Of a stretch of DNA of 53,051 bases, positions 1-50,784 are shown piece by piece. The stretch comes from Halopiger aswanensis (GTDB taxonomy: Archaea > Halobacteriota > Halobacteria > Halobacteriales > Natrialbaceae). The stretch spans positions 1,963-55,013 of the forward strand of contig NZ_RAPO01000008.1 of NCBI RefSeq assembly GCF_003610195.1, read 5' to 3'. The notes beneath the pieces are model-generated. The model did not search any database, was not told the origin of the DNA, and worked only from the letters and a program-made list of their open reading frames with translations. A program made the translations under genes and the position numbers. Each line of letters starts with the position of its first letter. The first letter of the stretch is position 1.

Positions 1-297
1 GAGTGTGTTCCCCTGTCCATCTCTGTCTCTGCCGATCTCGGTCGACAGTCCGCGATCGTGTCGCCCTGCAGTGAGTGGGGCACCCGTTCGACGCTGGCTC
101 GAGTCTTCATCCGAGGCGAACCATCCGGGGCCATGGTCGAGCTGGTTTTCGTCGACGATCAAGCCACACTCTCGACAGTGTGTTTCGCGGTTCGCTGTGA
201 TCAGTGTGCCACTGCACTCGGGACACGACAGTGTCGATTGCAACTGTTGCGATGCATCTCGAGTGGAGCAACTGCTGACGGTCTGATCTGTAGCCAT
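1..297 (-). CDS. tfb: Transcription initiation factor IIB (TFB), N-terminal part, cut by window edge
   Basis: Reading the reverse strand from ATG at 297 gives 99 residues that run off the left edge without a stop. A zinc ribbon is visible: CPEC at residues 25-28 and CREC at 41-44. It is followed by a B-finger-like segment with WFASDED at 59-65, QRRTGAPLTAGRHDRGLST at about 69-87 and the IGRDRDGQG region. This is the typical start of archaeal TFB, which bridges TBP-bound promoter DNA and RNA polymerase. The cyclin-fold core lies outside the window. A second ATG at 300 is directly adjacent, so the start is uncertain by one codon. Haloarchaea carry several TFB paralogues, so this may be an accessory one. 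It matters because a divergent TBP lies further along the same window. Confidence 0.9.
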   Translation of the reverse strand, partial: MATDQTVSSCSTRDASQQLQSTLSCPECSGTLITANRETHCRECGLIVDENQLDHGPGWFASDEDSSQRRTGAPLTAGRHDRGLSTEIGRDRDGQGNTL

Positions 298-17030: not shown

Positions 17031-17116
17031 GGTGTCCACCCATCAGGCACCCGAAAAACCCCACAGCGCAACACCGAGATAGGCACCTGTATTGTAGATG
17101 GACCAGCGCCGAACAA

Positions 17117-21038: not shown

Positions 21039-21062
21039 AACCCCAGGTATCGATGGGACCAA

Positions 21063-25146: not shown

Positions 25147-28100
25147 CCGACGAGAGCTGGTTCGCTGCCGATGTTGGGAGCGATTTCGAGGAGTCCGTCC
25201 GCATTGACCGCGAGGATGACGGTCGCGATCATCGATTGGAATCGATCGACACCTACCACGTGACAGAGGAGTCCGAGGACTTCATGTCTGACTTCTTCTC
25301 GCGCCTGCTCGGCCGTTCTGAGGATATGCGGTCGGGGGCGAACTACTGGCTCTACGGATACTACGGGAGCGGAAAGAGTCACCTCCTTAGCGTACTCCGC
25401 GGGCTTCTGGATAGCGAATGGCTTCGACAGCGAGACGATGTCTGGGAACAGCTAACCGACGGTCGTGAACTAGACACGCTCGAGTCCACGTGGTCATCGA
25501 TCCATGATGAATACGAGGTCATCCCGATCTCGGTGAACCTCCTAAAGCATCAGGGTCAGAAGAAACTGAGCTTCAGCGAGATCGTCCTCCGAAGCGCTCA
25601 CACGTCGGAACGACTCACTGGTACGGAGGGAGGGCTCTCGTCGCAACTCGACGTTGCATTCTTCGAGGACTGGTACCGGACGACCGACGCGTGGGATGAC
25701 CGGACTGCCAACACCCAAACGGCACTCCAGAGTACGGTTGACAGCCCCGAGAAGTACGACTGGGAGGACGTTCAGCAGTACAACGCTCTCGCAGACGCCG
25801 TTCTTCCCACACTCTTCAAGCAGGAGACCGGCACGGAGGATGGTCTAGACGACTTGATGCCGTCCGATCTCGACCCTCAAGCGATGGTCGAGCGCCTCGA
25901 ACAGTTACGGAGCGATCGCGAAGAGGAACTCGGTCATCCGGTCAAGCTCGTGCTGTTGCTCGACGAGGTCAGTCTCTTCATCGGGACGGATTTCGACCGA
26001 CTCACCGAGTTGCAGACGCTCGCAGAGAGCGTCGACGAGACTGGTGACGGCGACATCCAGCTGGTGGCAACAGCACAGGCCAAAATCGAGGACGTCCAGC
26101 CGCAGTTTGCGGCTCGCGGGGCCGACTTCAGCATCGTCAAGGATCGGTTCCCGCACCGGTTTGGCCTTCCGAGCCGACACGTCGGTGAAATCTCGACCCA
26201 ACGGTTACTCAAAAAGTCGGAAGCCGGAAGGGAGGACACGGAACGCGTCCTCGACCGAACCAGCAATGAGCCTGAGACACTGCTCGTATACTCGGGCATC
26301 GAACAGAACACCGAACCCCCGCTCGACGACATCGACCGCGAGCACCTCGTCGAGTTCTATCCGTTCCTCCCGTATCAGCCACCGCTGTTCCTCGAAATCC
26401 TCTCGAACCTCCGGCAGGAAGCACATGATCCGGCGAAGTCGATCTTCTCGGGAACTGCGCGGGCTATTCTGGCTCTCGTTCACGGACTTCTCCAAGAGTG
26501 GATAGAGGCCGGCGAAGAGGCCCACGTAATCTCGCTGGTCGACTTCTACGATCTCATCGAACCGGAGCTCGATGACATTACGCCACAGGACGTGGGTGTC
26601 ATCGAGGAGATCGAGGAACAACACGAGGCAGGGGAACTGGAGGAGATCGACGTGGATGTCGCGAAGGCCGTGCTCCTCCTCCAACACATCCCGGACACCA
26701 TTCCGATGTCTGAGCGGAACCTCGCAGTCGCCGTGTTGAGCGACCTCGACGGCCCGACTCAGTTCCAGATGGAGAACCGCGTCGAGGACTCGCTTCAACG
26801 GCTCCGGAAGTTCATCCGACCGACACACGACGAAACCGGGCCGAAGTACGCGTTCACTCATCCGGAAGAGCGCGAGATCATCGAAGCCTCTGAGCAAAAC
26901 CTCGACAACCCGGACTGGCAGTCCATCATCGAAGCCGTAGACGGGTATCTCTGGGAGGACATCGTGCGCGACCTTTCACTTCCGACGTCGGCCGAGTATG
27001 GAGATACCGGCGAACAGTATCCTGTACGGTACGAATTCAGTATTGACGGAATCGAACTTGATACGACGGTTGATGAAGAGGACGCCCTCGATGTCGAGGT
27101 CGCTGTCGAAGGGATTTCTCCCGCTACAGCAGACATCGACTACGACGGCGATCCGCTCGAATGGACGATCGGACAGGACGGACTCGACGATCTCCGAGAT
27201 AGCCTTATCGAGTGGTGGTCTCTCAGAGATCCAGTCGGAGACCACACGCTTCCACAGTCCGTCGAGCGTGATCTTTCAGATCGGGCAACTCGCGTCCAGA
27301 GCAAACTTGTCGAGGCGCTCAAGAGCGGGACGTTCGATGTCAAGGACCGCGGCGATCAGATCGGGGGCATGGTCTCGGGAGTCGAAGAGTATCTCGACGT
27401 CAACTACCCCGACGACTTCCACCCCGTAATGCTGCAGGTAAGCGACGAGCACTTACAGGAACTCCGAGGACTCTCCGCACAAGATCCGCTACCCACGTGG
27501 GCCCAGCAGATCGATGTTGCGACGGAAGACCCAGAAACGCACGGTGGTTCGATCCAGAACAACGTGCGCGCCTTCACTGGCCGACAGTTGAAGCAACGTG
27601 GCGGGAACCTCGCGATGGCCACGATCCTCGACGGAATCGTCAAAAAGAAGCCGATCTATGAGGACGCTCGCCCCGCACTGTGTGCGATTATCTGGGGCCT
27701 CTGCCGGAAGGGTGACTTCCTGCCCGTTGACGAGACGGGAGACTCCCTCGAACTCGACGCCGTCATCGATCTGAACAAACTGACGACGACGCGTCTCAAG
27801 ATCGCGGGGAGTGGCGGTGTGCGAGGCATTCTTCGCGAGGGTGGGTTCATCGACTCGACGGAGACTATTCCGGACGGAATCGTCAGGCTCCAGTCCGCGA
27901 ACGACACACTCGCGGGTCGACTCGGTAGTCTCGTGGAAGACGTCAGGCTGGTCGTCGAGAGTGACATCCAAACGCCAACCGTTCGCAACCTCCTCGAGTC
28001 GTTCGTGGAGGCGCTCGAAGCCGAGCAACAGAGCGCGATCGACCGAAGAGAGGCCGTTAAATCACGCGACACCGACTGGGAGGAAGTTGTTGAAGCAACC

Positions 28101-28826
28101 AACGAGGCCCGGGAATGGTATGACGATGCCGAGGAAGTGTGGAGCTTGCGACTTCCCGCGCTCACACGAATCGATGCGCAGCTAACTCTCGCCCAGCAGT
28201 CGTACGACTGGCTGACCGAGGAGTGCGAAACGGCCAGCCAGACGCTTCGCGAGAGCATCGACGGCTACGAGGGCGAATGGTGGACACACGATGGCTGGGA
28301 TCGATTCAACGACGCCCAAACCACCTCACCGGCACTCGACGATGCGATTGAGACGGCGTGGGATTCGTTCCAAGAGGAAACCGAGATCAACGCATTCGTC
28401 GACGAGTTACAGGAGCATCCGTGGATCCTTCCCGCAAGCGAGTTTGGGTCGAACGTTCGGCCGGCCTTCGAGAGCAAATACATTACACCGCTCCGTCGCG
28501 CCGCATCGTGGTACGAGGACGTCTCAAATGCGGTGTCGACGGTGACTGGTGGAACGACCAACACCGAGGCTGACGACTTCATTCGAGCGACGAACACACT
28601 GCTAGACAGCGAACCCCTCGCTGTGGTTGCCGGTAGCGACATCGACGAATTACGAGATACGTTCGAGGAGCTACAGACACTCGTTGGAGATCAATCTCCC
28701 ACAGACATCACGGCAATTGGAGTTCTCCCGTCGGATCGGGAATCACTGGACTCCGAACTGGAACGGCTCGTCGAACACCATGACATCAGTATCGAGCGGA
28801 CTGAGACGGGGGTAATCATCCGATGA
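25143..28826 (+). CDS. brxC: BrxC (first copy), AAA+ ATPase
   Basis: A 1227-residue protein from ATG 25143. Walker A is YGYYGSGKSHLL at about 71-82, following NYWLYG, which is typical for BrxC/PglY. Walker B is KLVLLLDEVSLFIG at about 268-281, then QLVATAQAKIED and a sensor-like region. The remaining 800 residues are helical and acidic and contain the usual BrxC length (about 1200). BrxC is essential for BREX defence and likely forms a large ATPase assembly with BrxB and PglZ. It overlaps brxA and brxB by ATGA at both ends. A second, distinct copy lies downstream, a mark of type 5 BREX. Confidence 0.93.
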   Translation: MTDESWFAADVGSDFEESVRIDREDDGRDHRLESIDTYHVTEESEDFMSDFFSRLLGRSEDMRSGANYWLYGYYGSGKSHLLSVLRGLLDSEWLRQRDDVWEQLTDGRELDTLESTWSSIHDEYEVIPISVNLLKHQGQKKLSFSEIVLRSAHTSERLTGTEGGLSSQLDVAFFEDWYRTTDAWDDRTANTQTALQSTVDSPEKYDWEDVQQYNALADAVLPTLFKQETGTEDGLDDLMPSDLDPQAMVERLEQLRSDREEELGHPVKLVLLLDEVSLFIGTDFDRLTELQTLAESVDETGDGDIQLVATAQAKIEDVQPQFAARGADFSIVKDRFPHRFGLPSRHVGEISTQRLLKKSEAGREDTERVLDRTSNEPETLLVYSGIEQNTEPPLDDIDREHLVEFYPFLPYQPPLFLEILSNLRQEAHDPAKSIFSGTARAILALVHGLLQEWIEAGEEAHVISLVDFYDLIEPELDDITPQDVGVIEEIEEQHEAGELEEIDVDVAKAVLLLQHIPDTIPMSERNLAVAVLSDLDGPTQFQMENRVEDSLQRLRKFIRPTHDETGPKYAFTHPEEREIIEASEQNLDNPDWQSIIEAVDGYLWEDIVRDLSLPTSAEYGDTGEQYPVRYEFSIDGIELDTTVDEEDALDVEVAVEGISPATADIDYDGDPLEWTIGQDGLDDLRDSLIEWWSLRDPVGDHTLPQSVERDLSDRATRVQSKLVEALKSGTFDVKDRGDQIGGMVSGVEEYLDVNYPDDFHPVMLQVSDEHLQELRGLSAQDPLPTWAQQIDVATEDPETHGGSIQNNVRAFTGRQLKQRGGNLAMATILDGIVKKKPIYEDARPALCAIIWGLCRKGDFLPVDETGDSLELDAVIDLNKLTTTRLKIAGSGGVRGILREGGFIDSTETIPDGIVRLQSANDTLAGRLGSLVEDVRLVVESDIQTPTVRNLLESFVEALEAEQQSAIDRREAVKSRDTDWEEVVEATNEAREWYDDAEEVWSLRLPALTRIDAQLTLAQQSYDWLTEECETASQTLRESIDGYEGEWWTHDGWDRFNDAQTTSPALDDAIETAWDSFQEETEINAFVDELQEHPWILPASEFGSNVRPAFESKYITPLRRAASWYEDVSNAVSTVTGGTTNTEADDFIRATNTLLDSEPLAVVAGSDIDELRDTFEELQTLVGDQSPTDITAIGVLPSDRESLDSELERLVEHHDISIERTETGVIIR

Positions 28827-29404
28827 CGACCAAACGTCCCTTCCACGACTTCACAGAACGGCTCGCACAGTTCGCCGACGGGCGACGCGGCATCCGAAAC
28901 CCGTTCGTGATCGTTCCCGTCCAGCCAAAATACGAGCGACGGGTCGCCGAACGACTCACCGAGTGGGCAGCGAACCCGCATCGTACCGAGGACTTCCCGG
29001 ATGACGGAACCGTTCAAGTCCTCCGGCTGGACGAGCTGTTCGTCGAAACCGATGTCTTCGAACTAGCGGTCGATCTTGGCGAGAACAATCAACCAGCGAC
29101 GATCACCGAAACGATGCAAGACCGATTAGCGGAAGAACTCGTCGCGGTTATGGTCGAGAAAATCGAGGCGCCAGCTCAGCAGCGACACGTCGTCCTCCTC
29201 ACGCATCTTGGGAGCCTCTACCCGTTCACGCGTGCCTCGGAACTCCTCGACGAACTCGATCGTCGCAACGTCCAGTCTACGATCGGCATTCCGTTCCCCG
29301 GAGACATCGTCGGTGGGAAACTGAGCTTCTTCGGCGAGGAATCACGCAACTACTACCCGGCCCACCAGATCGAGGGCCGAATTGAGGGGGTGCATCTCCA
29401 ATGA
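28823..29404 (+). CDS. brxB: BrxB (DUF1788), BREX component
   Basis: A 193-residue protein, the usual BrxB length. It begins TTKRPFHDFTERLAQFADG, then GIRNPFVIVPVQPKYERRVA and ERLTEWAANP, and has RHVVLLTHLGSLYPFTRASE followed by IGIPFPGDIVGGKLSFFGEE near the C-terminus. This order matches DUF1788. BrxB is thought to scaffold BrxC with PglX or PglZ. Overlaps of four bases with both flanking genes show tight coupling. Confidence 0.92.
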   Translation: MTTKRPFHDFTERLAQFADGRRGIRNPFVIVPVQPKYERRVAERLTEWAANPHRTEDFPDDGTVQVLRLDELFVETDVFELAVDLGENNQPATITETMQDRLAEELVAVMVEKIEAPAQQRHVVLLTHLGSLYPFTRASELLDELDRRNVQSTIGIPFPGDIVGGKLSFFGEESRNYYPAHQIEGRIEGVHLQ

Positions 29405-32400
29405 GTGAAACACACATTCACGACATCTTCCAGCAGTCACCGACCCGCGAACTCGAGGAAGTTCAGAAGGTCAATGCCCGAGCGCAAGCTGAAAACGACG
29501 TCCGCGAGTTCTACGAGACTGATAGCGCACGCGACGTGCTCACTACACTCGGGAACCTTGTCGATAAGTATCCACACGAGGAACCGCGCTTCCTCTACAT
29601 CTCCGCGACGTTTGGGTCAGGGAAGACACACCTTCTGAAACTCATCGGGTTCGCTGCCGACACCGAATCGGAGTTTGCCGATCTCGGCGAAGAGCTGGCG
29701 AACAGATGGCCGGGCTTCCAGTCATTCCGACAGAGCGTCGCGAACTCTCACGTCGACCGGCTGAAACCCGTCTTCCTGAACCTCCTCAACCGGGACGCAT
29801 CACAGGAACCGCCGCTCCCGTACCTCATCTACGAGGCGATCGGCCGCGAACTCGGGTATCCGACCGATCCAAATTGGCTGCTCGAGTGGACGTGGCAGCT
29901 CGATATGAACCATGGGGACTGCTGGGAGCGACTACAGGAAGTCGAGTACGACGGACAGACGTTCGAGGATGTGTACGAAGAACGGGCGTCGCTACGGAGC
30001 TGGCTCTACGAAGCTGTTCCGACCCTCGAGGACTCACCGTTCTCGTCTCGGGAGGAGGTCAAGCAGTCGATCGACAACGCCATTGAGGAGGTCGACCCCG
30101 ACGAGTTTGACCCGGACGAACTTGTCGACCGCGTCGAAGCGGCTCAAGAGTCGCTGAGCACGCCGGAGACCAAGACGGAGTTGCTGATCGGGCTCGACGA
30201 GGTGGCGCTGTTCATCGGCGATGGCCGCCATCGCTACAGAGAGTTCCAAGAGACGATGGAAGCGCTGACAGAGTTGGGTGTCGGGCCCAACCCGCCGGTC
30301 ATCGGGACTGGACAGTATCCGATCGGGCGTATCCACGGCGAGTTCGACGATACGGAAGTTACGGAGCAACCGTGGTACGGTGCTCAAGAACCGCTCGAGG
30401 GAGCCGACACCGAGATCATCGTCCGGAAGCGGTGGCTGCAGAAGGACACCGAGGGTGGAGAGGCCGTCGAGTCCGTGCTTCGGGAGATGCCCGACCTGAC
30501 GCTCGACGCATACTCCGATATTGCCGGGGCCGACCCGGACGCGGTCGAGTCGTACCCGTTCCGCGAGTACGATCTCGGGTTGCTCCGGACGGTGATTCAG
30601 CAACTGATGCCGCGTGGACGCGTGACCGAAGAAGAGTACGTGCAGGGTCGGGCGTTGCTCATCCTCGTCCGCTCGCTGTTCACGCGGTTCGAGTGGGGAG
30701 ACAAGCAGGTCGGTGCCCTCGTCACATGGGACGAGTTGTACGATCTGCTGGTCGAAGAGACGACCTACATCCCGCTATGGGTACAGGAGATGGTCGAGAA
30801 CAAACTCATCCCCTCGGCCGGGGGCGACGAGGATGTGTTCTCCGTCCGCGTTGCGAAGGCGCTATACCTGTTGAATCAAGTTCGTTCCGAGGTGCCGTCA
30901 ACGCCGGCGAACCTCGCCCGACTGATGGTCAAGTCAACTGACGAGTCGTTCGAATCCACCAGGGGCGATGTCAAATCGGCGTTGTCTGACCTCCTCGAGG
31001 ATCGGAAGGTACTGACGGAGACAAACGACCGCGGCGACGAGGAGTACCTGTTGGTCTCCGAGGAGCAGGAGGACATCCTGACGCGGGCGAAGACTCGCGC
31101 ACAGCAGATCCCATCGCATCGACTTTCGGCCAAGTTAGAGAACTCCCTTCGGGAGGGAAGCGACCTCCTGCTCTCTGAGGGCAGTCGACACGAGGTCGAT
31201 CTCGAGGGAGAGCGCAAAGTCCCACTCCGGTTCGGCTACTCTGTCCTCGACCCTATCGAACAAGCACCGACGCCGGAGTTTGACGCCGTTCGTGTGCGGT
31301 TGGTCGCTGGCCGAGGCGATGAGGTTAGTGATCAGGTTGATGCGTGGCAGTCGACGAACGAAGGGCGGGATGGGGGCGAACACGTCCTCGTCGCCGTCGA
31401 TCTACAGGGATCGACGATCGATCGCCTGCGGGACGTGATGGGTATGCAGGAAGTTCTCTCAGAGGAGACGGAAACGTATCCGGACCTGGAGTCCGACCAC
31501 CGCGACGAACAGCGGGCACTCGAGTCGACGATTCGTGAGCAACTCGAAGATGCGGATGTCTACATCCGAACAGGCGGGACGAGAGGACGATATGGGGACG
31601 TGTTCGAGCAGGTCGTGGAAACGCAAGTCAAGTCCGTGTTCAGCGAGACGCGCTTCGTCCTGACTAACGGAATCACGGAAGTTGAGGACGCCAAGCAGAT
31701 GGCGCGGTTCTTCCGCGGCGTCGATGACTGGCCGCTCTCGAGCGAGGACGCTGTCACACTCGGTGTGGATACTGACCGGGCAGAACTCGCCGACGGCCGA
31801 TGTCAGGAGTTTCTCGACGAGTACGAGGACACCCAGTCGCTTCGCGCCGAAGACCTTCTTACCCAGACCGTCCAGCGCGGGGGCACGTATCGCGGGACAC
31901 CGCAGGAATCGATCTCGGCACTATTGATCACGCTCGCAACGGCCAACAAAATCGCGCTGCGCCGTGACGACGAGTACATTACCGAACCAGACGAGATCGG
32001 GCGAGCGGTCAGAAACAAGACGAACCTGACCGACGTACAGATTCGCTTCGAGTCGATCGGCGATACCGATCCAGAGCAGATTCGGGAAACCGTCGAGACG
32101 CTGATCGACAAGGAGACAGAGGGAACCGATCCCGACGCGTGGCTCTCTGAGTTAGCAGAATGGGTGGACGAGAACAGTGTGCTGGTGAAACGCATATTAC
32201 GAGGCGTCAGCAGGGAGTTCGGCGAAGGCGCTTCGCTGGACGAACTCGAGACGGCTCTCCAGCCCGCACTCGGCGGCGAATCTCTCGAAACGGACGATTT
32301 CGCAGCCGACGAGATCGAACGGCAGTCCGAGCGCTTCGCTCGGGCAAGAGGGCTCTTCCGATCGGTCGAGGATGGCGACTCTCTCTGGGAGCAGTTCAGC

Positions 32401-33243
32401 CAGCGGACGACGGAGATGCAGCGACTCTACCCCGGTTCGGACATCACGGGGGAGATGCAAGCGATCGTCGGTGGGGACGAAGTGCCAGATGCCGACCGGC
32501 TTCGAGCGACGATCGACGAAGCCGACGCCCACAGACGAACCGTCGTCCGCGAGCAGTACGAACGCATCACGGGAGAGTCGCCGCCGGACGAGGAGCCCGA
32601 GAGCGTGGTTTCCAGTCTCGCGACGTGGCTCTACACTCACGATGGGAGCAGCAAGGAAACTGCCGACCACGTCGTCGTCGAATTCGACGGTGTAACCATC
32701 GACGATCTCTACGATCTCTTCGAGACGGCGTGGAACGGTGGCTCGTTCTCGGAGGAAGACCTCGTCGACCCGACGGTCGTTCAGCAAGCCAAGCGGTACG
32801 AACGGGCACGGCGCCTCCTCGAAGCATCCGGTAGCGAGGCCTCGCTCTGGTCGCAGCTTCGGGAGGCATCGGAACGGCTGGAAGAAGAATATCCGAACCA
32901 CCCAGTCACGACCGATGTGAGCGAGATGCTCAGTTGGTCGCAGCCGCCGAGTGTCGGGGAGGTAGAACAGCTCCTCGATGACGCGGAGAACCCCTTCGAG
33001 GTAGACGAGCGACTCGAGGAACTCGCCAGCGAACTGCAGTCCGAGTATCCCGACCACGATCTCACCCAAGAGATCGTCGATGCAGTAGAGGGAACCAGCC
33101 CGCCGAGTGAGGAACACGTGGGTGAATTGATCGAAGATGCCGAGCAGTTGCTCGACGGTGTTGACGAGCAGCTGCGGCGGATTCGGGAGACCATGGATGA
33201 ACTACCAGATGGGTCTGTTATGATGATCGAGCCGCTCGACTGA
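29401..33243 (+). CDS. brxC: BrxC (second copy), AAA+ ATPase with C-terminal repeats
   Basis: A 1280-residue protein. Walker A is ISATFGSGKTHLLKLIG at about 68-84 and Walker B is ELLIGLDEVALFIGDG at about 260-275. The sensor region has PPVIGTGQYPIGRIHGEF. It is clearly related to, but diverged from, the first BrxC. Three similar segments near the C-terminus (about residues 1008-1041, 1161-1194 and 1213-1247) share a Y-P, T-x-E/D, P-P/P-D and L-x-x-x-D/E-A pattern, suggesting repeated small helical domains. Possession of two BrxC proteins is known for type 5 BREX; they may act as a hetero-oligomer. Last gene of the overlapping operon. Confidence 0.92.
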   Translation: MSETHIHDIFQQSPTRELEEVQKVNARAQAENDVREFYETDSARDVLTTLGNLVDKYPHEEPRFLYISATFGSGKTHLLKLIGFAADTESEFADLGEELANRWPGFQSFRQSVANSHVDRLKPVFLNLLNRDASQEPPLPYLIYEAIGRELGYPTDPNWLLEWTWQLDMNHGDCWERLQEVEYDGQTFEDVYEERASLRSWLYEAVPTLEDSPFSSREEVKQSIDNAIEEVDPDEFDPDELVDRVEAAQESLSTPETKTELLIGLDEVALFIGDGRHRYREFQETMEALTELGVGPNPPVIGTGQYPIGRIHGEFDDTEVTEQPWYGAQEPLEGADTEIIVRKRWLQKDTEGGEAVESVLREMPDLTLDAYSDIAGADPDAVESYPFREYDLGLLRTVIQQLMPRGRVTEEEYVQGRALLILVRSLFTRFEWGDKQVGALVTWDELYDLLVEETTYIPLWVQEMVENKLIPSAGGDEDVFSVRVAKALYLLNQVRSEVPSTPANLARLMVKSTDESFESTRGDVKSALSDLLEDRKVLTETNDRGDEEYLLVSEEQEDILTRAKTRAQQIPSHRLSAKLENSLREGSDLLLSEGSRHEVDLEGERKVPLRFGYSVLDPIEQAPTPEFDAVRVRLVAGRGDEVSDQVDAWQSTNEGRDGGEHVLVAVDLQGSTIDRLRDVMGMQEVLSEETETYPDLESDHRDEQRALESTIREQLEDADVYIRTGGTRGRYGDVFEQVVETQVKSVFSETRFVLTNGITEVEDAKQMARFFRGVDDWPLSSEDAVTLGVDTDRAELADGRCQEFLDEYEDTQSLRAEDLLTQTVQRGGTYRGTPQESISALLITLATANKIALRRDDEYITEPDEIGRAVRNKTNLTDVQIRFESIGDTDPEQIRETVETLIDKETEGTDPDAWLSELAEWVDENSVLVKRILRGVSREFGEGASLDELETALQPALGGESLETDDFAADEIERQSERFARARGLFRSVEDGDSLWEQFSQRTTEMQRLYPGSDITGEMQAIVGGDEVPDADRLRATIDEADAHRRTVVREQYERITGESPPDEEPESVVSSLATWLYTHDGSSKETADHVVVEFDGVTIDDLYDLFETAWNGGSFSEEDLVDPTVVQQAKRYERARRLLEASGSEASLWSQLREASERLEEEYPNHPVTTDVSEMLSWSQPPSVGEVEQLLDDAENPFEVDERLEELASELQSEYPDHDLTQEIVDAVEGTSPPSEEHVGELIEDAEQLLDGVDEQLRRIRETMDELPDGSVMMIEPLD

Positions 33244-33430: not shown

Positions 33431-33976
33431 TTATTCTAATGCACTCTGCTTGATGCGCTCTTCTAACGCTGTGAATGCATCCTTATCCTCTTTCCGCGTC
33501 CGACCGCCTGTAATCACCACCTTACCACTTCCGAACACAAGTAACACACAGTTCGTCCCATCAGGGCGATACACCAGTCCTGGGAACTGCTCAGGTTCGT
33601 ACTCCACATCTTCAATTCCAAGCTCAATCGTTAACGCGTTCAAATCCACCTCGTGTCCTAAATTGCCGACCGCAACCACATTCTTAATCTCTAACTCTGC
33701 TGCGTCCACTTCGACACCCATCTCCTCCAACAACCCCAAGAACCGCTCGTTCACCGCGTACATTATCTCAAACTCATCCCCACCACGCAGAATATACTTC
33801 CCAGACGTATAGAGAATCACCAGTTCCCCATCCTCTTCGAAGCGAAAGAACGATGCGTTGAACTTTGGGTCGTAGTTGGAAACGGGTAGGGGCGCGTCCG
33901 CAGCCAACACCTCGATGTCTACCTCACTCTGAAGATTCCCAAGACCAACGATATTCACAACCTTGATACCAGCCAT
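33431..33976 (-). CDS. tbp: Divergent TATA-box-binding protein (TBP) inside the BREX cluster
   Basis: A 181-residue protein with the two-fold TBP saddle. The C-terminal repeat is well preserved: EIKNVVAVGNLGHEVDLNAL, YEPEQFPGLVYRPDGTNCVL and LVFGSGKVVITGGRTRKEDK. The N-terminal repeat is diverged: KVVNIVGLGNLQSEVDI, then YDPKFNASFFRFEEDGELVI and LYTSGKYILRGG, so the usual QFPGLVYR is replaced and one of the DNA-bending Phe positions is Tyr. Length matches archaeal TBP. It lies between brxC2 and pglX on the opposite strand, sharing a promoter region with pglX. It may direct transcription of this cluster with a special promoter preference; that is inference. No other TBP is in the window, but a TFB is at its left edge. 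Confidence 0.9.
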   Translation of the reverse strand: MAGIKVVNIVGLGNLQSEVDIEVLAADAPLPVSNYDPKFNASFFRFEEDGELVILYTSGKYILRGGDEFEIMYAVNERFLGLLEEMGVEVDAAELEIKNVVAVGNLGHEVDLNALTIELGIEDVEYEPEQFPGLVYRPDGTNCVLLVFGSGKVVITGGRTRKEDKDAFTALEERIKQSALE

Positions 33977-34050
33977 TACTCATGCATTGAGGGGCATAAC
34001 TGGTAGACTTTACTTCATCAAATTACAATCGCTTCTCTGTCACTTTTTCG

Positions 34051-37000
34051 ATGGACAATCTTCAAAACACCTCCGTGGGTTTTGAATATACATCGGCTGA
34101 CTCTCATATGGAAGGGAATTCTGCGACACAACGCAAGGCCCAGCTCGACAAGGAAGAACGTGAGCATCTCGAGGACGTCGTCACCGAGATGCGTGACCGC
34201 GTCGAGGCGAACGTTCGTTACCAACTTGAGGACGAGTACGCCCTCGACAAGAAGCCAAACGACGACGCGTCCCTGAGCGAGGAGCAAGAAGACCTCGTTG
34301 AGGCGATTGAACTCGAAGCCGTCGACGGCAACGACTGGGAAGACGGTTACGAGGAGTACATTACCGGTGTCGGGTACACCATCGTCAATCGGCTGGCTGC
34401 GCTCCGTTGTATGGAGGTTCGCGGATTCATTGACGACGAGGTTACTGCCTTCCGCGACGATGGACTCACGCCAGCAGCAGACCGGCTGGTCACGGAGGAG
34501 TTCATGCTCGAGGAGGAGGCTGTCCTCGAAGCCTACCGAAACGCGTGCGACGACCTCGCCGAGGAGATCGAGATTCTCTTCGACCGCTCGACCGCCTACA
34601 GCCTGATCGACCCCGATGACGACACGTTCGAAGACCTCTGTGGAATGCTCGACGAAGTATCCGACGAGGTCTGGCGGGCCGACGACGTGCTCGGCTGGGT
34701 CTATGAGTACTACAACGTCAAACTTCTCGACGATCTCCGCCGGAAGGGTGACCGGGAAGGTCTGGAGCCCGAGGACGTACCGGCGGCGAACCAGTTCTAC
34801 ACCCCGCATTGGGTTGTCCGGATGCTCACCGACAACTCGCTGGGCAAGCTCTATCTTGAAGACAGAGGCGACCTGCAGGAAACCGTCGAGAGACAGGACT
34901 CGCTGACACCTAACGAGCGCAAGAACCGTCCTCTCTCTCCTGATGACGCTCCAGACATCGCTGACTTCTGCACCTATCTCGTCCCATCCGAAGAGGAAGG
35001 CGAACCACCGGAGTTCGACGGCCCTGAGGACATCCGCGTCATCGACCCTGCCTGTGGCAGCGGTCACTTCCTGCTATACGCGTTCGACGTATTGGAGCGC
35101 ATCTGGCGAGCAGAAACTAATCTCGACCCTGCAGAGATCCCTCACAAGATTCTCTGCAATAACCTCTATGGTGTCGACCTCGATATGCGGGCCTGTCAAC
35201 TCGCTGCGTTCAATCTCTATCTAAAGGGCCGTACGCGTGCCGAAGCTGAAGGAGCTGATGGCTTCGATATGCCGGAGGTTGGCATCGTCTGTGCCGACGC
35301 GAAAATAGCCGATGTCGAAGGCGTCGAGGCGGTTTTCGAGGAAGTTATCTCGAGTAGTTCGAGTATTGAGGGTGCTCTGAGTGAGGACGAAGTTCGTGAA
35401 GCGTTAGAAAGTATTCTCGGAGCATTCGAAGATGTCCACGGGCTCGGTAGCCTCCTCGATGTTCGGGGAACCATCGGTGAGATGTTTAGCGATGATGAAG
35501 GTGGCTTGCAGTTAACCTTCGATGACGAGTTCTCTGCGGACTACACTCTGAGCAGTTTCCTTCGTACACTACAGGAGGCAATTTCGGAGCATCGTAACGA
35601 GGATTCGTTCTTGGCTCAGGACTTGCGGAGCTTTGTTCGGTTACTAGATGTTCTGGGACAGGATTATGACGTTGCGTTAATGAACCCTCCTTACGGTTCA
35701 AAAAAGCGAATGCCCGATCCGATTCAGGATTATATTGAGTCTCATTACGAATACTACCCGAACTTCTACATCAGCTTCTTTGAGGTATGCGACAATTTGA
35801 CCAAAGAGGCCGGTCGTATCGGTATGCTCGTCCCTCGAACATTTTTGTTCCTAGATAGTTTTGAGAACTTCAGAGAAGACTTCGTTGGGGAAGAAGGAGG
35901 ATTTGATTTCTTAGCAGAATTTGGGATCGGAATATTGGATAATGCAACAGTACGGACTGTCGGCACCGTTGTTAGATCGGAAACCAATAAAAGCAGGACT
36001 GGTGTATTCGTTCGACTCTACGATCAGGATAGCTCTATGAAAGAGGATACTTTCACACAAACTATCTCCAAAACTAATAACAATATTGACAGATACTTCG
36101 AGATAAATCTCGACGAATTTGCAGAGATTCCTCGAACCCCCATATGTTATTCTACACCATCGGAGGTGAGAAGTCTCTATGAGACGAAGACTCTCCTTGA
36201 CGCCGAACAAGCAGATGTAGATGGTGATTCTGCTTTCTACGCTGTCACAGGCATTATTACGTCAGGAATTGACCGGTTCTTGAGAAAACACTGGGAAGTA
36301 AGAGACAAGCAAACTTTCAAGCCAATCGCAAAAGGAGGGGAAAATGCTTGGATTCTCCCACAAATAACCAAATCAGTAGAGTGGGGTGAGAGAGGGACTG
36401 TTCTAAAACGATCCAGTAACTCGATCCGCACTCCTAATGAAGAACTCTATGGCAACCCAGGCCTTACTTGGACATATATTAAAGATACCGGCCGTCGATT
36501 TGGCTACTACTTCGGAGGTCTTTTTAGTGTAACAGGTATGATGCTCTTCCCGCGTGAAGACGGATCTCTCTGGGAAATTATGGCGATACTGAATTCTGAT
36601 TTATACCACAGTCTATTCCTATCCCAAACTATTGAAAGAAACTGGAATCCAGGAGAGATTGGCGCAGTTCCGTGGATTCGAGAACTGATGGAAGGAAACT
36701 CACTATCTAACCTCGCGAAGGAACAATACCAGATTATGCTACAACGTCAAATGAATGATGCTATAAGCCCATTTTATGCAGGGCCAGAACTATTACCGTC
36801 TGAATCTAATCAAAATTTCTTCTACGATCATCCCCACACCTCTGTTATTGAGGTGCAATTTGAAAGCGACAAAAATGGTGTCTCTGCAAGTACAAGCATT
36901 GAGGATGCAGCCCGTGAAAGACGGAAACAAAACCTTGAGAATCTAAACAAGCTAGAGAGTATATCGACTGAAATCAACGAACGTGTCTACAATAAACTTG

Positions 37001-38451
37001 GAATAACAGACGATACACGTGAGGCTATTGAAACAGAGATATTCCTACGTACTTCTGAAGATCCATCTGATCGTGAAGTTCCAGATCCAGATACCATTCC
37101 TGAAATACTTGACAATCTCGAAGAAAGGGTTAAAAATCTCGTACACCACTTCGCGATGGAGGCCGTCCGTGAGGAAGACGGTGGCATCATTCCACTGGAA
37201 GGCACGGACGAACAGGCAGACATACTTGACCGCATCATCGAGCAGTTTCACAACGCGTACGGCGAGCACGCCGAAGACCGTCTCGTCGAGGTCGATGACA
37301 TCCTCGGTGCTGAATCGGCTGCCGACGAGGCGTATCCGAATTTGCGGGCGTTCATCGAAAACGACCTCTTCAACTACCACGTCGAGACGATGGAGAACAC
37401 ACCCATCTTCTGGAAACTCAGCACGGAGCGACTCCTCGCCGACTCGAAGGGCGAGGGCTTTGCCTGCTTCGTCGACTACCACCAGCTCGACGCCAGCCTC
37501 TTCGACCGCCTGAGCAACCACTACCTCGAGCCCCGAAAGGCTGAACTCCGCGAGCGCCGATCGGCTGCGAACCGTCGGCAGAACGACGAGTCGCTCTCGA
37601 CCAGCGAGCGGGCCGAAGCCACTGACGAGTTCGAGTTCTGTTCGAGCGCCCTCGAGCAGATTGCCGAACTCGAAGAAGTGATTCAGGAACTCGGTAGCAC
37701 AAGCGAGCGGGACTTTGACGAGGACGAACGCGAACTTGTGGAAGAACTCGCGCCGAAGGTGACCGCGTTCCGCGAGGTGACGGCCGAGCGAATCGAGACG
37801 CTCGCCGAACTTCGAGAGCGTAACGGCGAGGAGTGGTTCCAAGATACCTTCTCGGACAACTTCTGGGACGCAGTCGACAAATGGCGTGACGAGTGGCTGG
37901 ACGCTCTCGACGAACTCGAACGTGCCTGCAAAGAGTACGCTAAGCCGAGTGACGAACCCGTTGAGGCCCATCTGGCAGACCTCTTCGACTACTTCAACTG
38001 GCGACTCAAGGGCTCGGATCACTACTCCAGTACGGGCATCCTCTTCATGACCTACTACTTCGAACGTGAGGGGAGCAAACTCCTCAATGACGAGGATAAA
38101 CCATTCGACAACCTCACCGAAGACGAGGAGATGCTCGCCTCGCTCGCGATGGGCGTCGACGATGCGTCCATTCTCGACGAGCAATACCTTCAGCAGATTG
38201 CGGACGAGGAGGACATCGACGACGTGGACGACTTACCACCGCTAGCGGAGTTCAAGGCGCTCGCCGAAGAGATCGACGACCGCTGTCAGACGGTGGACAA
38301 ACAAATACCCTCGGACTGGTCAGACCGGGCACTTTCGGAGATCACAACTGCCGGCTACCAGCCCAACCAGAAGCACGGCGTCGCTATTAATATCACGCCG
38401 CTTGCGGAGAAGAACATTGTTCCCGAGGTCGTCGAGGACAAGGTGTTGTAG
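34051..38451 (+). CDS. pglX: PglX, BREX DNA methyltransferase
   Basis: A 1466-residue N6-adenine-type methyltransferase. The SAM-binding motif I is VIDPACGSGHFLLYAF at about 330-345 and the catalytic motif IV is NPPY at 545-548. The N-terminal 300 residues are helical (with NQFYTPHWVVRMLTDNSLGK just before the domain), and the C-terminal 400 are helical and highly charged. PglX methylates a BREX site to mark self DNA. An alternative start at 34108 (MEGNSATQRK) follows an AT box TTGAATATA at leaderless distance. Between about 35640 and 37130 the gene is much more AT-rich than its ends (18 GC of 60 at 36061-36120 against 36 of 60 at 34141-34200), including the probable target-recognition region. 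Confidence 0.94.
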   Translation: MDNLQNTSVGFEYTSADSHMEGNSATQRKAQLDKEEREHLEDVVTEMRDRVEANVRYQLEDEYALDKKPNDDASLSEEQEDLVEAIELEAVDGNDWEDGYEEYITGVGYTIVNRLAALRCMEVRGFIDDEVTAFRDDGLTPAADRLVTEEFMLEEEAVLEAYRNACDDLAEEIEILFDRSTAYSLIDPDDDTFEDLCGMLDEVSDEVWRADDVLGWVYEYYNVKLLDDLRRKGDREGLEPEDVPAANQFYTPHWVVRMLTDNSLGKLYLEDRGDLQETVERQDSLTPNERKNRPLSPDDAPDIADFCTYLVPSEEEGEPPEFDGPEDIRVIDPACGSGHFLLYAFDVLERIWRAETNLDPAEIPHKILCNNLYGVDLDMRACQLAAFNLYLKGRTRAEAEGADGFDMPEVGIVCADAKIADVEGVEAVFEEVISSSSSIEGALSEDEVREALESILGAFEDVHGLGSLLDVRGTIGEMFSDDEGGLQLTFDDEFSADYTLSSFLRTLQEAISEHRNEDSFLAQDLRSFVRLLDVLGQDYDVALMNPPYGSKKRMPDPIQDYIESHYEYYPNFYISFFEVCDNLTKEAGRIGMLVPRTFLFLDSFENFREDFVGEEGGFDFLAEFGIGILDNATVRTVGTVVRSETNKSRTGVFVRLYDQDSSMKEDTFTQTISKTNNNIDRYFEINLDEFAEIPRTPICYSTPSEVRSLYETKTLLDAEQADVDGDSAFYAVTGIITSGIDRFLRKHWEVRDKQTFKPIAKGGENAWILPQITKSVEWGERGTVLKRSSNSIRTPNEELYGNPGLTWTYIKDTGRRFGYYFGGLFSVTGMMLFPREDGSLWEIMAILNSDLYHSLFLSQTIERNWNPGEIGAVPWIRELMEGNSLSNLAKEQYQIMLQRQMNDAISPFYAGPELLPSESNQNFFYDHPHTSVIEVQFESDKNGVSASTSIEDAARERRKQNLENLNKLESISTEINERVYNKLGITDDTREAIETEIFLRTSEDPSDREVPDPDTIPEILDNLEERVKNLVHHFAMEAVREEDGGIIPLEGTDEQADILDRIIEQFHNAYGEHAEDRLVEVDDILGAESAADEAYPNLRAFIENDLFNYHVETMENTPIFWKLSTERLLADSKGEGFACFVDYHQLDASLFDRLSNHYLEPRKAELRERRSAANRRQNDESLSTSERAEATDEFEFCSSALEQIAELEEVIQELGSTSERDFDEDERELVEELAPKVTAFREVTAERIETLAELRERNGEEWFQDTFSDNFWDAVDKWRDEWLDALDELERACKEYAKPSDEPVEAHLADLFDYFNWRLKGSDHYSSTGILFMTYYFEREGSKLLNDEDKPFDNLTEDEEMLASLAMGVDDASILDEQYLQQIADEEDIDDVDDLPPLAEFKALAEEIDDRCQTVDKQIPSDWSDRALSEITTAGYQPNQKHGVAINITPLAEKNIVPEVVEDKVL

Positions 38452-38460
38452 ACCTGCTTA

Positions 38461-39687
38461 TCATCCCTCGTTCGCGAATTCTTCGAGACGTTTCAATCGG
38501 TAAGCGAGTACTGGCCCTACACCATCAATCTGTTCCAGTTCACCCAACGAGGTTTGCTCGAGATACTCGATCGAGGGTAACTCCTCACGGAGGGTTTTCT
38601 CCTTATTGTCCCCGATTCCGGGGACAATCGACCATCTGCCTTCTCTAAAGGCGTTCCGAACTTCTTGCTGATCGAATTCATCGAGATCAAGTCCTTGAGA
38701 ACTGAGAGAGGTCTCGATCGAAGCGACCCGCTCGTTCATATCTCCGACTTCATCCAGTAATTGCTCAACCTGACGCTCAGTCGCTTTCGTTTCCTCAATT
38801 TCGGACAAACGAGACTCGAATTCGTCGGCGAATTCATGGAAGTTTGAACGAAGTCGCGATGTCTCATTCATCATTTCGTCTACTTCCGACAAGATCTCAT
38901 CCCGAGTTCCCTGAAACTGCTCGTATGTTGTGTCAGAGACATACGATGAAACTTTCTCGGCGAAAGCTTCTGTGGACTCCATTCGTCCGGGTGCAACAAC
39001 GAACGGCCCTTCTCTAGACTCATCAAATAAATTCTCTAATTGATCTCGGATGTCACCTAATCTGTTGAGGATTCTCTCTTGATTTGATGTAACTTCCTCG
39101 TCATCAACCTCGAATTCCAAGTCATTCGGTGAAAAATCGGTAGACGCTGAAGCATCTTCACGATCATATCTTTCCATCGCCTTCTGATACGCAGCCATGC
39201 CGATCGCATCCCCAAGATTACTACTGATAGCACCCACAACCACGATGAGAAACAGGGTATCAACTATATTAGCAGACAATGTGGCGAGGGGAATTGTCAA
39301 AGCACTCCCAAGGAAAATCCCCGAATATCTAGGTAGAGACAGGCGAGGCAAACTTCGAGTCCCGCCATCTGTTCTTACGACTACCCTTGCAGAAACTAGC
39401 AATTGTATTAGCTCTCGGAGACGGCTGATCTCTTCACGCAGGGAGTCTTCTGGCCTAATGTCGCCAATAGCGGGATACTGCAATGTGAACTGAACCCCGG
39501 TCAACACCGCAGCTACGAGCAGCACAGAAAAGATGTTTTCAGGATTGAAAAACGCCGGGAGAACAGCAGGAGCAGCACCAGCAGTATAAATTAGAACTTG
39601 GGTGATTAGATTCGCCGCGACTCCCTCAGAAGTGTTCTTGCCATATCGAGCGAGTTGAGCCCGTACATCGAGACCAATAACTCTCAC
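38461..39687 (-). CDS. Membrane/coiled-coil protein with C-terminal helix-hairpin-helix
   Basis: A 408-residue protein. Membrane segments are visible at about 23-47 and 52-69 and as a long hydrophobic stretch at 121-163 (GIFLGSALTIPLATLSANIV). From about 190 to 345 it is a charged coiled coil (ESRLSEIEETKATERQVEQL and neighbours). The last 55 residues carry two helix-hairpin-helix-like motifs: WSIVPGIGDNKEKTLREELP and LEQIDGVGPVLAYRLKRLEE, usual for DNA binding. It ends 10 bases after the pglX stop in convergent orientation and starts 64 bases after the FokI-like gene, so the two minus-strand genes are probably one operon. It could tether DNA to the membrane. No family is recognised. Confidence 0.75.
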   Translation of the reverse strand: MRVIGLDVRAQLARYGKNTSEGVAANLITQVLIYTAGAAPAVLPAFFNPENIFSVLLVAAVLTGVQFTLQYPAIGDIRPEDSLREEISRLRELIQLLVSARVVVRTDGGTRSLPRLSLPRYSGIFLGSALTIPLATLSANIVDTLFLIVVVGAISSNLGDAIGMAAYQKAMERYDREDASASTDFSPNDLEFEVDDEEVTSNQERILNRLGDIRDQLENLFDESREGPFVVAPGRMESTEAFAEKVSSYVSDTTYEQFQGTRDEILSEVDEMMNETSRLRSNFHEFADEFESRLSEIEETKATERQVEQLLDEVGDMNERVASIETSLSSQGLDLDEFDQQEVRNAFREGRWSIVPGIGDNKEKTLREELPSIEYLEQTSLGELEQIDGVGPVLAYRLKRLEEFANEG

Positions 39688-39751: not shown

Positions 39752-42223
39752 TCATTCTGGATAGTATTCGAGCTGGTCTCGGTCGTAGCGTTCGAGTCGA
39801 CCAATGAGATTTTCCCGAACGTTAGCTACCGAGTCGCTATCAAAGTGAACGAAGGATTCACCATCTACCGTCTGTTCGTTGTTCAATTCGTCAATCACGT
39901 AGCTGTCGAACTTCCCACGGATTCGAGCGTCACGAAGTGCCCACCAGTACTCGTTCAGAAGCTCATAGAGTTCGACTACTGCTCTGAACTCCATGAACAC
40001 CAATTTCTGATTGGGAGCCTCTCCATCAGTATAGGTTAAGATGTTCTCTTGGACGTGGCCAGCGATACGGGAGAAATCATCCTCGTCGAAGTTCTGTGAG
40101 ATGAGGAGATGTGCCGACAGACCGTCATCACCCGTCTTGTTCTCGATTGCCTCTCGCTCATCTTCAGTAAGGATGTAACGCGTGGCCTGATCTTCTTCCT
40201 CTGAACCGAGGTCGTATCCGCCCTCACGGTGGGAGAGCTTTGCGTCGTAAGTGGCCACGTAGTAATCGCTCGGGTCTTCCTCCGGTACGATAAGCACTCC
40301 ATCTGCTTCTCGCTCACCAATGCGCCCCCATCGTTCGGTCTGTGAGTAGAGCCTCTTCAGGAGGTAGAAGAGGTGCTTTTCAAAATAGCTGTCATTAGAG
40401 GGGTCGTAGATCTCCTCCAATTCGTCCTTGTTTTCGTGCATCGGCCCCAGTTCATCGACGAGCCCGTAGTATTCGCCTGTCTCTTCGTGGGCCTCGCTTG
40501 CCTTACTGATGAGCCGATCTTTGACACCGACAATGGCATTGTGGAGGGCATTCCCGATGAGTGCGTCGAGACTGTCTGCTGTGATAATGTCGTAGAGGGG
40601 AAGTCGACCATACCCCTCGTCATCTGCAGAGGCAGATTGTCCATAAGTTACGTAGACACACTGCAGGAGATAGTCGTTAACAGTACCCGGACGTGGATGG
40701 TTGCCGTGAGGTACCACATCGACCTCTTGATACGAGCTCGTCGTTCTCCGCCCTTCCGAATCAGTTAACGAAAACGAAGTCTCGACGATCTTTCGATCGC
40801 CCATCTTCCGATCTCCGACATTCCAGCCGGAGAAATCCCGTTTCGGGTGCGTTGGTGAGATCTCGTCCAGTCGGTTCTGGATGTACGTGGCGACACTCGT
40901 TTCGTTGACCTCGACCACGGTCTCCTCAACAGATTCCGAGAAGTCTTCTGCTCCGCACTCCTCACACTCTGACTCCGAAGCAGGGTTCTTCTCCGAACAC
41001 TGTGAGCAAGTCTTGAATTCCTCGACTTCTGTACCAATAAGCGCGTTACCAGTTGTATCTACGTTGCCCTCTAGTACATCCTGAACCTCATCACTCAACT
41101 CCTCGTAGTAATTTTCGTACGCAGTTCCCCGTTCGGCGAGGATTCGATTGAACAGGTACTCCTCGTCTTGCGACCCATACTCGTAGATTTTCTCGAATTC
41201 GATACCCGTTACTGCAGTGAAACCCTGCTTGAACCGACTTCGCTGTTCGTCCAGTTTGTGATTCGTCTTGAGTTCGAACTCGACTCCGTCGACACCATGA
41301 GTGAGTTCAACACGGAACTTCCCACCGTGGCGGATGTCTTTGAGATATAACTTATTGACTTCGGAAATCCCATCGAAAGAAACGAGATTTTCGTTCCGCA
41401 ACGAGTGGATGTCTCTGTAGATAGATCGTTCATTCTTCACCCGTAATCTGGAGTTCTCGGGGAGTTCAGATTCTGCAAAGTCAACCCCAACCACACGGAA
41501 CTCCTCATTATCTTCGACGAGGAGGTTCTCTACCTTCCCAACGATTGGTTCTTCTGCTGGTTCTGGTTGCTGCTCTTGGAGATTGTCGTCTGAGCGTAAC
41601 CGCGTCACGACTTTCTTCCGATCCGACTGTCGACCTCGAACCTCGAACGACTCTTCGTATTTCCGAACTACGACTGGTTTCGTCTGTAGATACCGGCGGG
41701 CAACGATTTCACCGTCATCTACCTCTTTACCGATCGTAGGCTGCCCCGGCCACAGAAGGTCGAACTCATCGTTGATCGTCTCTTGTACGAGGTTCTCTTC
41801 GTCATCAACTAAATCGAGTTCTGTTGGATCGTCATCGTCGCTCTCGAATACTTCACCTTCCTGATTCTGAATCCAGATATATTCCACATATACTTCGTTC
41901 AACAATCTTCTTGCGTCATCATCGTCGGCCGTTAAGACTCTCTGTTTGAATTCGTTGACGGAGCCGTATTTATCCTCGATGACACGTTTCTTTCGCCGGA
42001 TAAAGACCTCGAGAAGCGCCCCTCCGAAAGATTCTGGCCCCTCCGAGTCTTCTGAATCTTCCTCGTCTGTATCTGTCTCGCTCTGGGAATCTTCTCCCAA
42101 AGTTGAATCGTCTTCGTCCTCTTCGGTCTGAACTAATCTCCGTGCTTCTTCGTAATCAACGTCAATTTTGTACCAAAATTCAGGGTCATCGAATACTGTC
42201 GGAATTGTAACCTGTTGGGGCAT
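39752..42223 (-). CDS. FokI-like nuclease with zinc ribbon, embedded in BREX cluster
   Basis: An 823-residue acidic protein with an Asp/Glu-rich stretch at 34-62. At about 404-424 a zinc ribbon CSQCSEKNPASESECEEC is seen. The C-terminal third resembles the FokI cleavage domain: EREADGVLIVPEEDPSDYYV, then ATYDAKLSHREGGYDLGSEE and EDQATRYILTEDEREAIEN. Asp641 and Asp660-x-Lys662 would be the catalytic D...DxK residues, and the GGY(D/N)L after the Lys also matches FokI. The N-terminal 600 residues have no recognised domain and could hold specificity. It is on the opposite strand between pglX and pglZ, followed by the HhH membrane gene. It may cleave invading DNA that lacks PglX marks; that is inference. 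Confidence 0.78.
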   Translation of the reverse strand: MPQQVTIPTVFDDPEFWYKIDVDYEEARRLVQTEEDEDDSTLGEDSQSETDTDEEDSEDSEGPESFGGALLEVFIRRKKRVIEDKYGSVNEFKQRVLTADDDDARRLLNEVYVEYIWIQNQEGEVFESDDDDPTELDLVDDEENLVQETINDEFDLLWPGQPTIGKEVDDGEIVARRYLQTKPVVVRKYEESFEVRGRQSDRKKVVTRLRSDDNLQEQQPEPAEEPIVGKVENLLVEDNEEFRVVGVDFAESELPENSRLRVKNERSIYRDIHSLRNENLVSFDGISEVNKLYLKDIRHGGKFRVELTHGVDGVEFELKTNHKLDEQRSRFKQGFTAVTGIEFEKIYEYGSQDEEYLFNRILAERGTAYENYYEELSDEVQDVLEGNVDTTGNALIGTEVEEFKTCSQCSEKNPASESECEECGAEDFSESVEETVVEVNETSVATYIQNRLDEISPTHPKRDFSGWNVGDRKMGDRKIVETSFSLTDSEGRRTTSSYQEVDVVPHGNHPRPGTVNDYLLQCVYVTYGQSASADDEGYGRLPLYDIITADSLDALIGNALHNAIVGVKDRLISKASEAHEETGEYYGLVDELGPMHENKDELEEIYDPSNDSYFEKHLFYLLKRLYSQTERWGRIGEREADGVLIVPEEDPSDYYVATYDAKLSHREGGYDLGSEEEDQATRYILTEDEREAIENKTGDDGLSAHLLISQNFDEDDFSRIAGHVQENILTYTDGEAPNQKLVFMEFRAVVELYELLNEYWWALRDARIRGKFDSYVIDELNNEQTVDGESFVHFDSDSVANVRENLIGRLERYDRDQLEYYPE

Positions 42224-50608: not shown

Positions 50609-50784
50609 TACCAATTGAGTTGACTAGTGAAATCATGAACTTATCGGAAACTATCATTTGTTCGGCTGACGATCGCTACACTTCAAAAACATTATAATTG
50701 TGACTTAACTAGGGAAATATACATCCGATTCTCATAATCAGAACTCATCTCTGACATAGTTCAGGGATCCGCTTGCTACGCTTA

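Follow-up and report, generated by a model that had tools for sequence, protein, structure and literature searches.

An altered TATA-binding protein in BREX-5 loci of haloarchaea, from a class linked to DNA methyltransferase systems

A TBP gene in a BREX-5 cluster of Halopiger aswanensis

The window (the whole stretch of 53,051 nucleotides of Halopiger aswanensis that was analyzed) carries a BREX cluster with the gene order brxA-brxC1-brxB-brxC2-[TBP]-pglX-pglZ-brxHII, in which a gene for a TATA-binding protein (TBP) sits among seven BREX genes that PADLOC models cover at full or nearly full length. All seven lie on the forward strand. The cluster opens with brxA (24304..25146; PDLC02456, 6.8e-171), followed by brxC1, a BrxC/PglY gene (25128..28826; PDLC02474, full length), brxB (28823..29404; PDLC02467, 2.2e-120, and Pfam BrxB) and brxC2 (29401..33243; PDLC02473, full length), the second BrxC/PglY gene that is the mark of type 5. 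Beyond the TBP gene come pglX, which encodes an adenine-specific DNA methyltransferase (34108..38451, in an ORF that opens at 34051; PDLC02518 and Pfam Eco57I), pglZ (42379..44571; PDLC02562, full length) and the gene for the brxHII helicase (44814..47732; PDLC02504). Because brxA, brxB, two brxC genes, pglX, pglZ and brxHII were all found, the system is a complete type 5 BREX (BREX-5).

Two reverse-strand genes are inserted between pglX and pglZ. One encodes a 408-aa protein with an HHH motif (38461..39687; weak match to Pfam HHH_2) and the other an 823-aa protein of unknown family (39752..42223) that has no Pfam or PADLOC match. Copies of the latter that are 91-93% identical occupy the same place in three other BREX-5 loci (L104, L108 and L109), and we regard it as a candidate BREX-5 accessory gene. 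On the left, a McrBC-type type IV restriction pair adjoins the BREX cluster (15321-21062), with an MrcB_N/AAA_5 gene (18357-21062) and an McrBC gene (17117-18514) that are both on the reverse strand; because this pair stands beside BREX, the window can be described as a defence island. On the right of the cluster is a PD-(D/E)XK nuclease gene (49298-50614, reverse strand; PDDEXK_4), which corresponds to the PADLOC candidate PDC-S26.

The TBP gene itself (33431..33976) is read on the reverse strand, from 33976 to 33431, as an ORF of 181 codons with an ATG start and no internal stops. Its product matched the Pfam TBP family (PF00352, 118 bits, E-value 1.6e-34) over two repeats; TBP matches were the only ones obtained in Pfam, with no helix-turn-helix match of the kind found in C proteins, and the PADLOC search returned no match for this ORF. 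The AlphaFold2 model is a confident saddle (mean pLDDT 94.1, pTM 0.84) that Foldseek aligned to solved archaeal and eukaryotic TBPs with TM-scores of 0.86-0.90. Chance is ruled out as an explanation, because the fold is supported by AlphaFold and Foldseek and because close homologs occupy the same slot in other genera. The ORF is an intact, genuine TBP gene. By fold and descent its product belongs to the TBP family, and its DNA contacts, as judged from aligned residues, are altered. In repeat 1, YDPKFNASFFRF replaces the YDPEQFPGLVYR of housekeeping haloarchaeal TBPs, and repeat 2 retains YEPEQFPGLVYR. Sequence and Pfam thus agree with the preliminary description of this DNA, which had reported a two-repeat TBP with the characteristic box gone from repeat 1 and present in repeat 2. 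The Halopiger genome encodes two TBPs, the BREX TBP and a housekeeping copy on another contig (C3), and about a dozen TFB genes.

The neighbors of the TBP gene are brxC2 on the left and pglX on the right, both on the forward strand, so the placement back to back with pglX and between core BREX genes is as previously described. The first ATG of pglX (34051) is 74 bp from the TBP start. Because homologs align from residue 20, pglX probably starts at M20 (34108), in which case the divergent TBP/pglX promoter region is ~131 bp long (33977..34107) and holds CAATCTTCAAAACACC.

Distribution of the BREX TBP and of the altered TBP class

We searched for TBPs in 391 genomes of the class Halobacteria. 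Relatives with 60-70% identity to the BREX TBP formed a separate group in these genomes, the next best matches being at ~50%. BREX-5 loci were located in the same genomes from the coordinates of BrxC2 and PglX, with 20-kb windows per locus. The clade of the BREX TBP is known from 11 independent loci in several haloarchaeal families, and all of them are inside BREX-5. Two of the 11 are plasmid loci, on Halorarius halobius unnamed3 and Halococcus dombrowskii unnamed1; the locus on Halanaeroarchaeum sulfurireducens pHSR2-01 duplicates one already counted from a genome. In the window, L094, L095, L098, L099 and L254 (Halococcus), brxC2 and pglX flank the TBP gene, which is on the opposite strand. 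The TBP gene is divergent from brxA in L096, and it directly follows pglZ in L093, L097, L100 and L252 (Halorarius). Since a single clade holds three BREX-5 slots, a functional link is favored over simple vertical hitch-hiking. Three copies of the clade have decayed, through a frameshift (G319), loss of the C-terminus (G217) or loss of the N-terminus (G299), and the BREX TBP is therefore dispensable.

Among ~67 BREX-5 loci, at least 9 contain a TBP of this clade and at least 13 contain any TBP; these counts are lower bounds, many windows stopping before the far ends of the locus. TBPs of other clades occur in L116, L125, L151 and L155, and L099 has both kinds. The TBP of L116 (13987-14919) lies between pglX and pglZ and has ~110 extra N-terminal residues without a Pfam match. 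Seven BREX-5 loci (L098, L110, L112, L113, L143, L146 and L152) have a second pglX downstream of pglZ, possibly for methyltransferase exchange or specificity switching. Because most BREX-5 loci are without a TBP, and because the conserved element upstream of pglX (see below) is kept either way, the TBP is an accessory of BREX-5 and not a core component.

Phylogenetic trees of 164 TBPs (FastTree) and of 74 TBPs (IQ-TREE) agreed. The nine BREX TBPs that are complete or almost complete form a single clade (support 100/97), and housekeeping TBPs separate from all altered TBPs with a support of 100/100; the tree rules out that the BREX TBP is a housekeeping paralog. Closest to the BREX clade are TBPs of loci with an N6/N4 methyltransferase and a UvrD-PDDEXK protein, followed by TBPs of type II restriction-modification (R-M) loci. 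When system types, assigned by hand from the neighbor analysis, were placed on the tree as labels, they required 11 changes compared with a mean of 38.6 for shuffled labels, and 0 of 200 shuffles were as low. Because members of one clade span several host families, the TBP tracks the system and not the host.

To assess the neighborhoods of related TBPs, we assembled an accessory set from TBPs that matched the BREX TBP at an E-value of 1e-30 or lower and from matches on named plasmids and genomes. The resulting 54 unique loci are a part of the TBP matches, ~40 weaker or short-flank matches not having been read at full length. Gene calls followed a simple longest-ORF rule, and the genes were clustered into families, the representatives of which were identified with PADLOC or Pfam. 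For 48 of the 54 loci, a methyltransferase, a BrxHII/DrmD-type helicase, HsdS or HsdR was encoded at most five genes away. Genes of these families filled 45 of 122 gene slots at distance 1 and 27 of 111 at distance 2, and none of 397 at a distance of six or more (distances 1-2 versus six or more, Fisher p ~2e-35); this distance profile rules out chance or a general defence-island background. According to PADLOC, the family representatives are type IIG RE-MTase/DrmMI/PglX, BrxHII/DrmD, the type I specificity subunit and the type I restriction enzyme.

Among the six remaining loci, two (L101 and L255) pair an N6/N4 methyltransferase and a UvrD-type helicase. In three others the TBP gene is followed by a gene for a MjaI- or NotI-type endonuclease, accompanied by an N6/N4 methyltransferase: L291, L287, where the methyltransferase is on the other strand, and L265, where the endonuclease ORF overlaps the TBP stop codon and the methyltransferase was identified by its TSPPYP motif and its likeness to that of L291. 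The sixth is a 3-kb contig, too short to judge. In total, 53 of 54 loci with an altered TBP are near methyltransferase or restriction genes, compared with 1 of 27 in the housekeeping-TBP control.

Relatives at 42-52% identity on annotated plasmids also adjoin methyltransferase genes. For instance, Halorientalis marina, Halobacterium salinarum pHS4, Halorubrum lacusprofundi pHLAC01 and Halolamina have the order methyltransferase-helicase-TBP with overlapping ORFs, Halobaculum roseum has methyltransferase-hypothetical-TBP, Haloferax lucentense has a divergent TBP/methyltransferase pair, and Halobacterium DL1 has an altered TBP in an R-M-like cluster. The complete pNRC100 carries four kinds of TBP gene, and the sole one with an altered repeat 1 is also the sole one in a methyltransferase-helicase operon. 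This gene (111987-112532) is probably tbpC, an assignment made from its residue signature because the record gives no gene name; the pNRC100/pNRC200 TBP with this signature is of the same class as the BREX TBP. Altered haloarchaeal TBPs are tied to methyltransferase systems of types I, II and IIG, not to BREX alone. Their association with these systems is strong and specific, and from it we infer regulation of the linked systems.

Neither of the two outcomes that the preliminary description named as refuting its idea was obtained: the TBP recurs in related BREX-5 loci (11 loci, five or six of them with the gene in the same slot), and the BREX TBPs form one clade (100/97) apart from housekeeping TBPs. 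Its reading is supported in part; the gene is an accessory, and the association extends beyond BREX to a wider R-M class.

A search with repeat 1 alone against 393 genomes of the phylum gave nothing better than ~1e-6 outside Halobacteria, and a viral collection contained seven distant TBPs, none in the BREX clade. On one IMG/VR contig classed as viral (L245), a methyltransferase gene stops ~26 bp before the TBP ORF. Ten loci encode two different TBPs (L273, L284, L288, L198, L194, L282, L289, L276, L166 and L099). They include several R-M loci and one BREX locus, with arrangements such as methyltransferase-TBP-helicase-TBP or hsdMSR with TBPs on both sides; the second TBP is often more degenerate, and such pairs may act as a regulatory couple. 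Two short ORFs of ~124 aa (G003:C1:397715 and G065:C1:77548) match the altered first TBP repeat only.

Conserved residues, promoter elements and TFB

The roles of TBP residues are known from yeast and archaeal structures of TBP-DNA-TFIIB/TFB complexes. Of the two halves of the protein, repeat 2 and its stirrup hold TFB and recognize the upstream side of the TATA box, and repeat 1 recognizes the downstream half. In repeat 2, the equivalents of F190, N159, E186 and E188 are present in all 62 accessory TBPs and in all nine BREX TBPs, and that of F207 in 60 of 62 and in nine of nine. Repeat 1 differs from this pattern of conservation. The equivalent of F116 is Tyr in 57 of the 62 accessory TBPs and in 9/9 BREX TBPs, all nine BREX TBPs have Arg in place of T124, and their clade shows no conservation at F99; F116 and T124 are present in 29 of 29 housekeeping TBPs.

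In the BREX TBP of the window, repeat 2 is complete (N99, F131, F148 and T156), and E127 and E129 are the predicted contacts of the C-terminal stirrup with TFB/TFIIB (yeast E186/E188). Repeat 1 has Tyr56 in place of F116 and Arg64 in place of T124. The protein therefore departs from the full set of four intercalating Phe with central Asn/Thr contacts because of its altered repeat 1, and it has the combination typical of TbpC-like TBPs, with the N-terminal Phe pair gone and the C-terminal pair present. The natural inference from these residues is a TBP that would still work with TFB and would read a different or weaker downstream half-site. Values of dN/dS between 0.06 and 0.27 for unsaturated pairs indicate purifying selection.

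We compared the regions upstream of pglX, the TBP gene and brxA and found no TBP-specific promoter element in them. A strongly conserved, atypical core-like element lies ~40-50 nt upstream of the start codon in pglX promoters of BREX-5 loci and exists in three versions (GGCAACATTAAAG, GGACAATCTTCAAGAC and AAGGGAACTTTGATG); in the window, the region 34035-34107 has the local version CAATCTTCAAAACACC. This element is conserved in BREX-5 loci with and without a TBP, and we rejected it as a TBP-specific site on those grounds. Since the pglX element is independent of the TBP, the simple dependence of pglX expression on this TBP that was proposed earlier is unsupported; the TBP may instead tune or time expression, or act at a different promoter in the locus. 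By eye, five loci share a short common stretch of the CCACCAGAGTAAT type upstream of the TBP gene. In the methyltransferase-helicase-TBP operons, the methyltransferase gene closely follows a preceding gene, which makes the promoters unreadable.

We also looked for a private TFB partner. TFB-like matches in the accessory windows were few and far from the TBP; since the loci have no TFB of their own, a TFB partner must come from the host. The window begins with a TFB-like sequence (1-231, reverse strand), and TFIIB repeats lie just beyond its edge (contig C8:11-523); both share the 55-kb contig with the TBP gene and are ~30 kb from it.

Proposed transcriptional control of methylation-based defence and alternative explanations

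We propose, with a probability of about 0.62, that the BREX TBP is a dedicated, cis-encoded TBP variant that sets the transcription of the genes of its BREX-5 system together with a host TFB. It would stay with the BREX-5 system as the system moves between haloarchaea, bind TFB, read a non-canonical promoter element and time or tune the expression of methylase and restriction genes. Its targets would probably include the promoter of pglX or brxA next to it as well as its own gene, and its effect could be either activation, or repression through competition with the housekeeping TBP. Counting against a dedicated controller are the many BREX-5 loci that have no TBP (the majority), the TBP-independence of the pglX element, the lack of a TBP-specific site in the regions compared, the three decayed copies and the tbpC deletion in Halobacterium NRC-1, which had no apparent phenotype (PMC2121645). 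Whether the whole TbpC-like class consists of cis-encoded controllers of DNA methylation-based defence, with a separate clade for each defence type (BREX-5 and type I, II and IIG R-M), we consider an even bet.

If this proposal is right, the BREX TBP would play in archaea the part that controller (C) proteins, small helix-turn-helix regulators of sigma-type promoters, play in bacterial R-M systems. Like C proteins, the altered TBPs are small DNA-binding proteins whose genes adjoin or overlap the R and M genes and are inherited with the system. A C-R-M-like order with the TBP gene in first place is found in L265 and L291, and also in L287 with the methylase on the other strand. The altered TBPs differ in fold and would exert control via TFB and the basal machinery of archaea, so that we view them, by analogy, as comparable to C proteins and not as members of that group. 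A regulator gene is likewise part of bacterial BREX loci, where BrxR is a WYL-domain repressor (PMC9122589) and not a TBP as here.

A TBP of this kind could also act negatively: by forming weak or dead-end complexes it would tie up TFB or sit on the promoters of the locus and so damp the defence genes. The loss of the repeat-1 Phe pair with all TFB-contact residues retained is compatible with such a competitor, as is the C-R-M-like gene order, C proteins often being both activators and repressors. However, the repeat-1 changes are conserved substitutions, with Tyr and Arg fixed in the BREX TBPs, and they are under purifying selection, which is not the picture of random decay, and we consider a purely negative factor unlikely. 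It is quite unlikely, in our assessment, that the TBP saddle has a role outside transcription, recognizing or bending DNA within the BREX or R-M machinery as one of its subunits, a role that has been suggested for TBP-like domains in TOTE/TALON conflict systems. The tight operonic linkage to methyltransferase and helicase genes, with overlapping stop and start codons, and the TBP-like proteins known from other defence operons (PMC12458937) would fit a subunit, but the TFB-contact residues are strictly retained, most BREX-5 loci manage without a TBP, in at least seven BREX loci transcription of the gene runs away from the operon, and in L265 it occupies the slot of a C protein.

Persistence of defence could be another function, if, along the lines of the second idea in the preliminary description, the BREX TBP were a back-up basal factor on which defence genes could rely once a virus had disabled or redirected the host TBP. 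A divergent sequence could evade a viral anti-TBP factor, and linkage to defence genes of several types is what one would expect. This is nevertheless very unlikely: we know of no viral anti-TBP factor in haloarchaea, the promoter of the back-up gene would itself need the host TBP first, and the C-R-M arrangement suggests timing and not persistence. Finally, a plasmid-borne TBP paralog might hitch-hike in defence islands without any role, a reading that could draw on the patchy distribution, the decayed copies, the location on plasmids and small contigs, and the earlier suggestion that TbpC may be non-functional (PMC4230888). It is already disfavored and highly improbable, because the association is gene-adjacent and not island-wide (0/397 slots at a distance of six or more), TBP clades track system type across host families, and one clade under purifying selection holds three BREX slots.

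The proposal of a dedicated, system-linked TBP can be set against earlier work on the same proteins. The TbpC-like TBPs described previously (Becker et al. 2014, PMC4230888) are the same protein class as the BREX TBP, with the N-terminal Phe lost and the C-terminal pair kept; that study noted the loss of the N-terminal pair, suggested loss of function or a very specialized role, and mentioned neither restriction nor BREX. New here, relative to PMC4230888, are the link to R-M and BREX operons and the BREX-only clade. In Halobacterium NRC-1, deletion of tbpC gave no apparent phenotype in assays that did not include defence, and extra plasmid TBPs were proposed to select promoters together with particular TFBs (PMC2121645). 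The ideas put forward there concerned environmental stress and regulation in trans; unlike in those proposals, the altered TBP class is linked in cis to a single function, DNA methylation-based defence.

The preliminary description knew of no BREX cluster with its own basal transcription factor, and we found none in the open-access papers searched, including a 2026 BREX survey that mentions neither TBP nor TATA (PMC12839542). Nor is the link between TBPs and R-M or BREX drawn in two surveys of archaeal or haloarchaeal R-M (PMC10609329 and PMC6471742) or in a paper on haloarchaeal TBP expansions (PMC3404096). TOTE/TALON defence operons do contain TBP or TBP-like proteins, with TBP listed as a component (PMC12458937). 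These systems are mostly bacterial and include TPR-CSD proteins and other effectors, whereas the BREX TBP is archaeal, has two repeats and carries the TFB-contact residues, and a general Pfam scan of the BREX proteins gave no match to TPR-CSD, OB or effector genes of that kind.

Altered TBPs may have consequences beyond this locus. A TBP with an altered repeat 1 is a simple genomic marker for new archaeal defence operons. If the proposal is true, it would explain why a TbpC deletion has no phenotype in ordinary growth, it would supply the archaeal counterpart of bacterial controller proteins that has been missing so far, and it would be an instance of a mobile gene cluster having a general transcription factor as its private regulator. 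Haloarchaea have many TBPs; why they do is an old question, and the usual answer has been environmental adaptation. Our results give a large part of the haloarchaeal TBP set a different, testable role, that of traveling with R-M and BREX systems.
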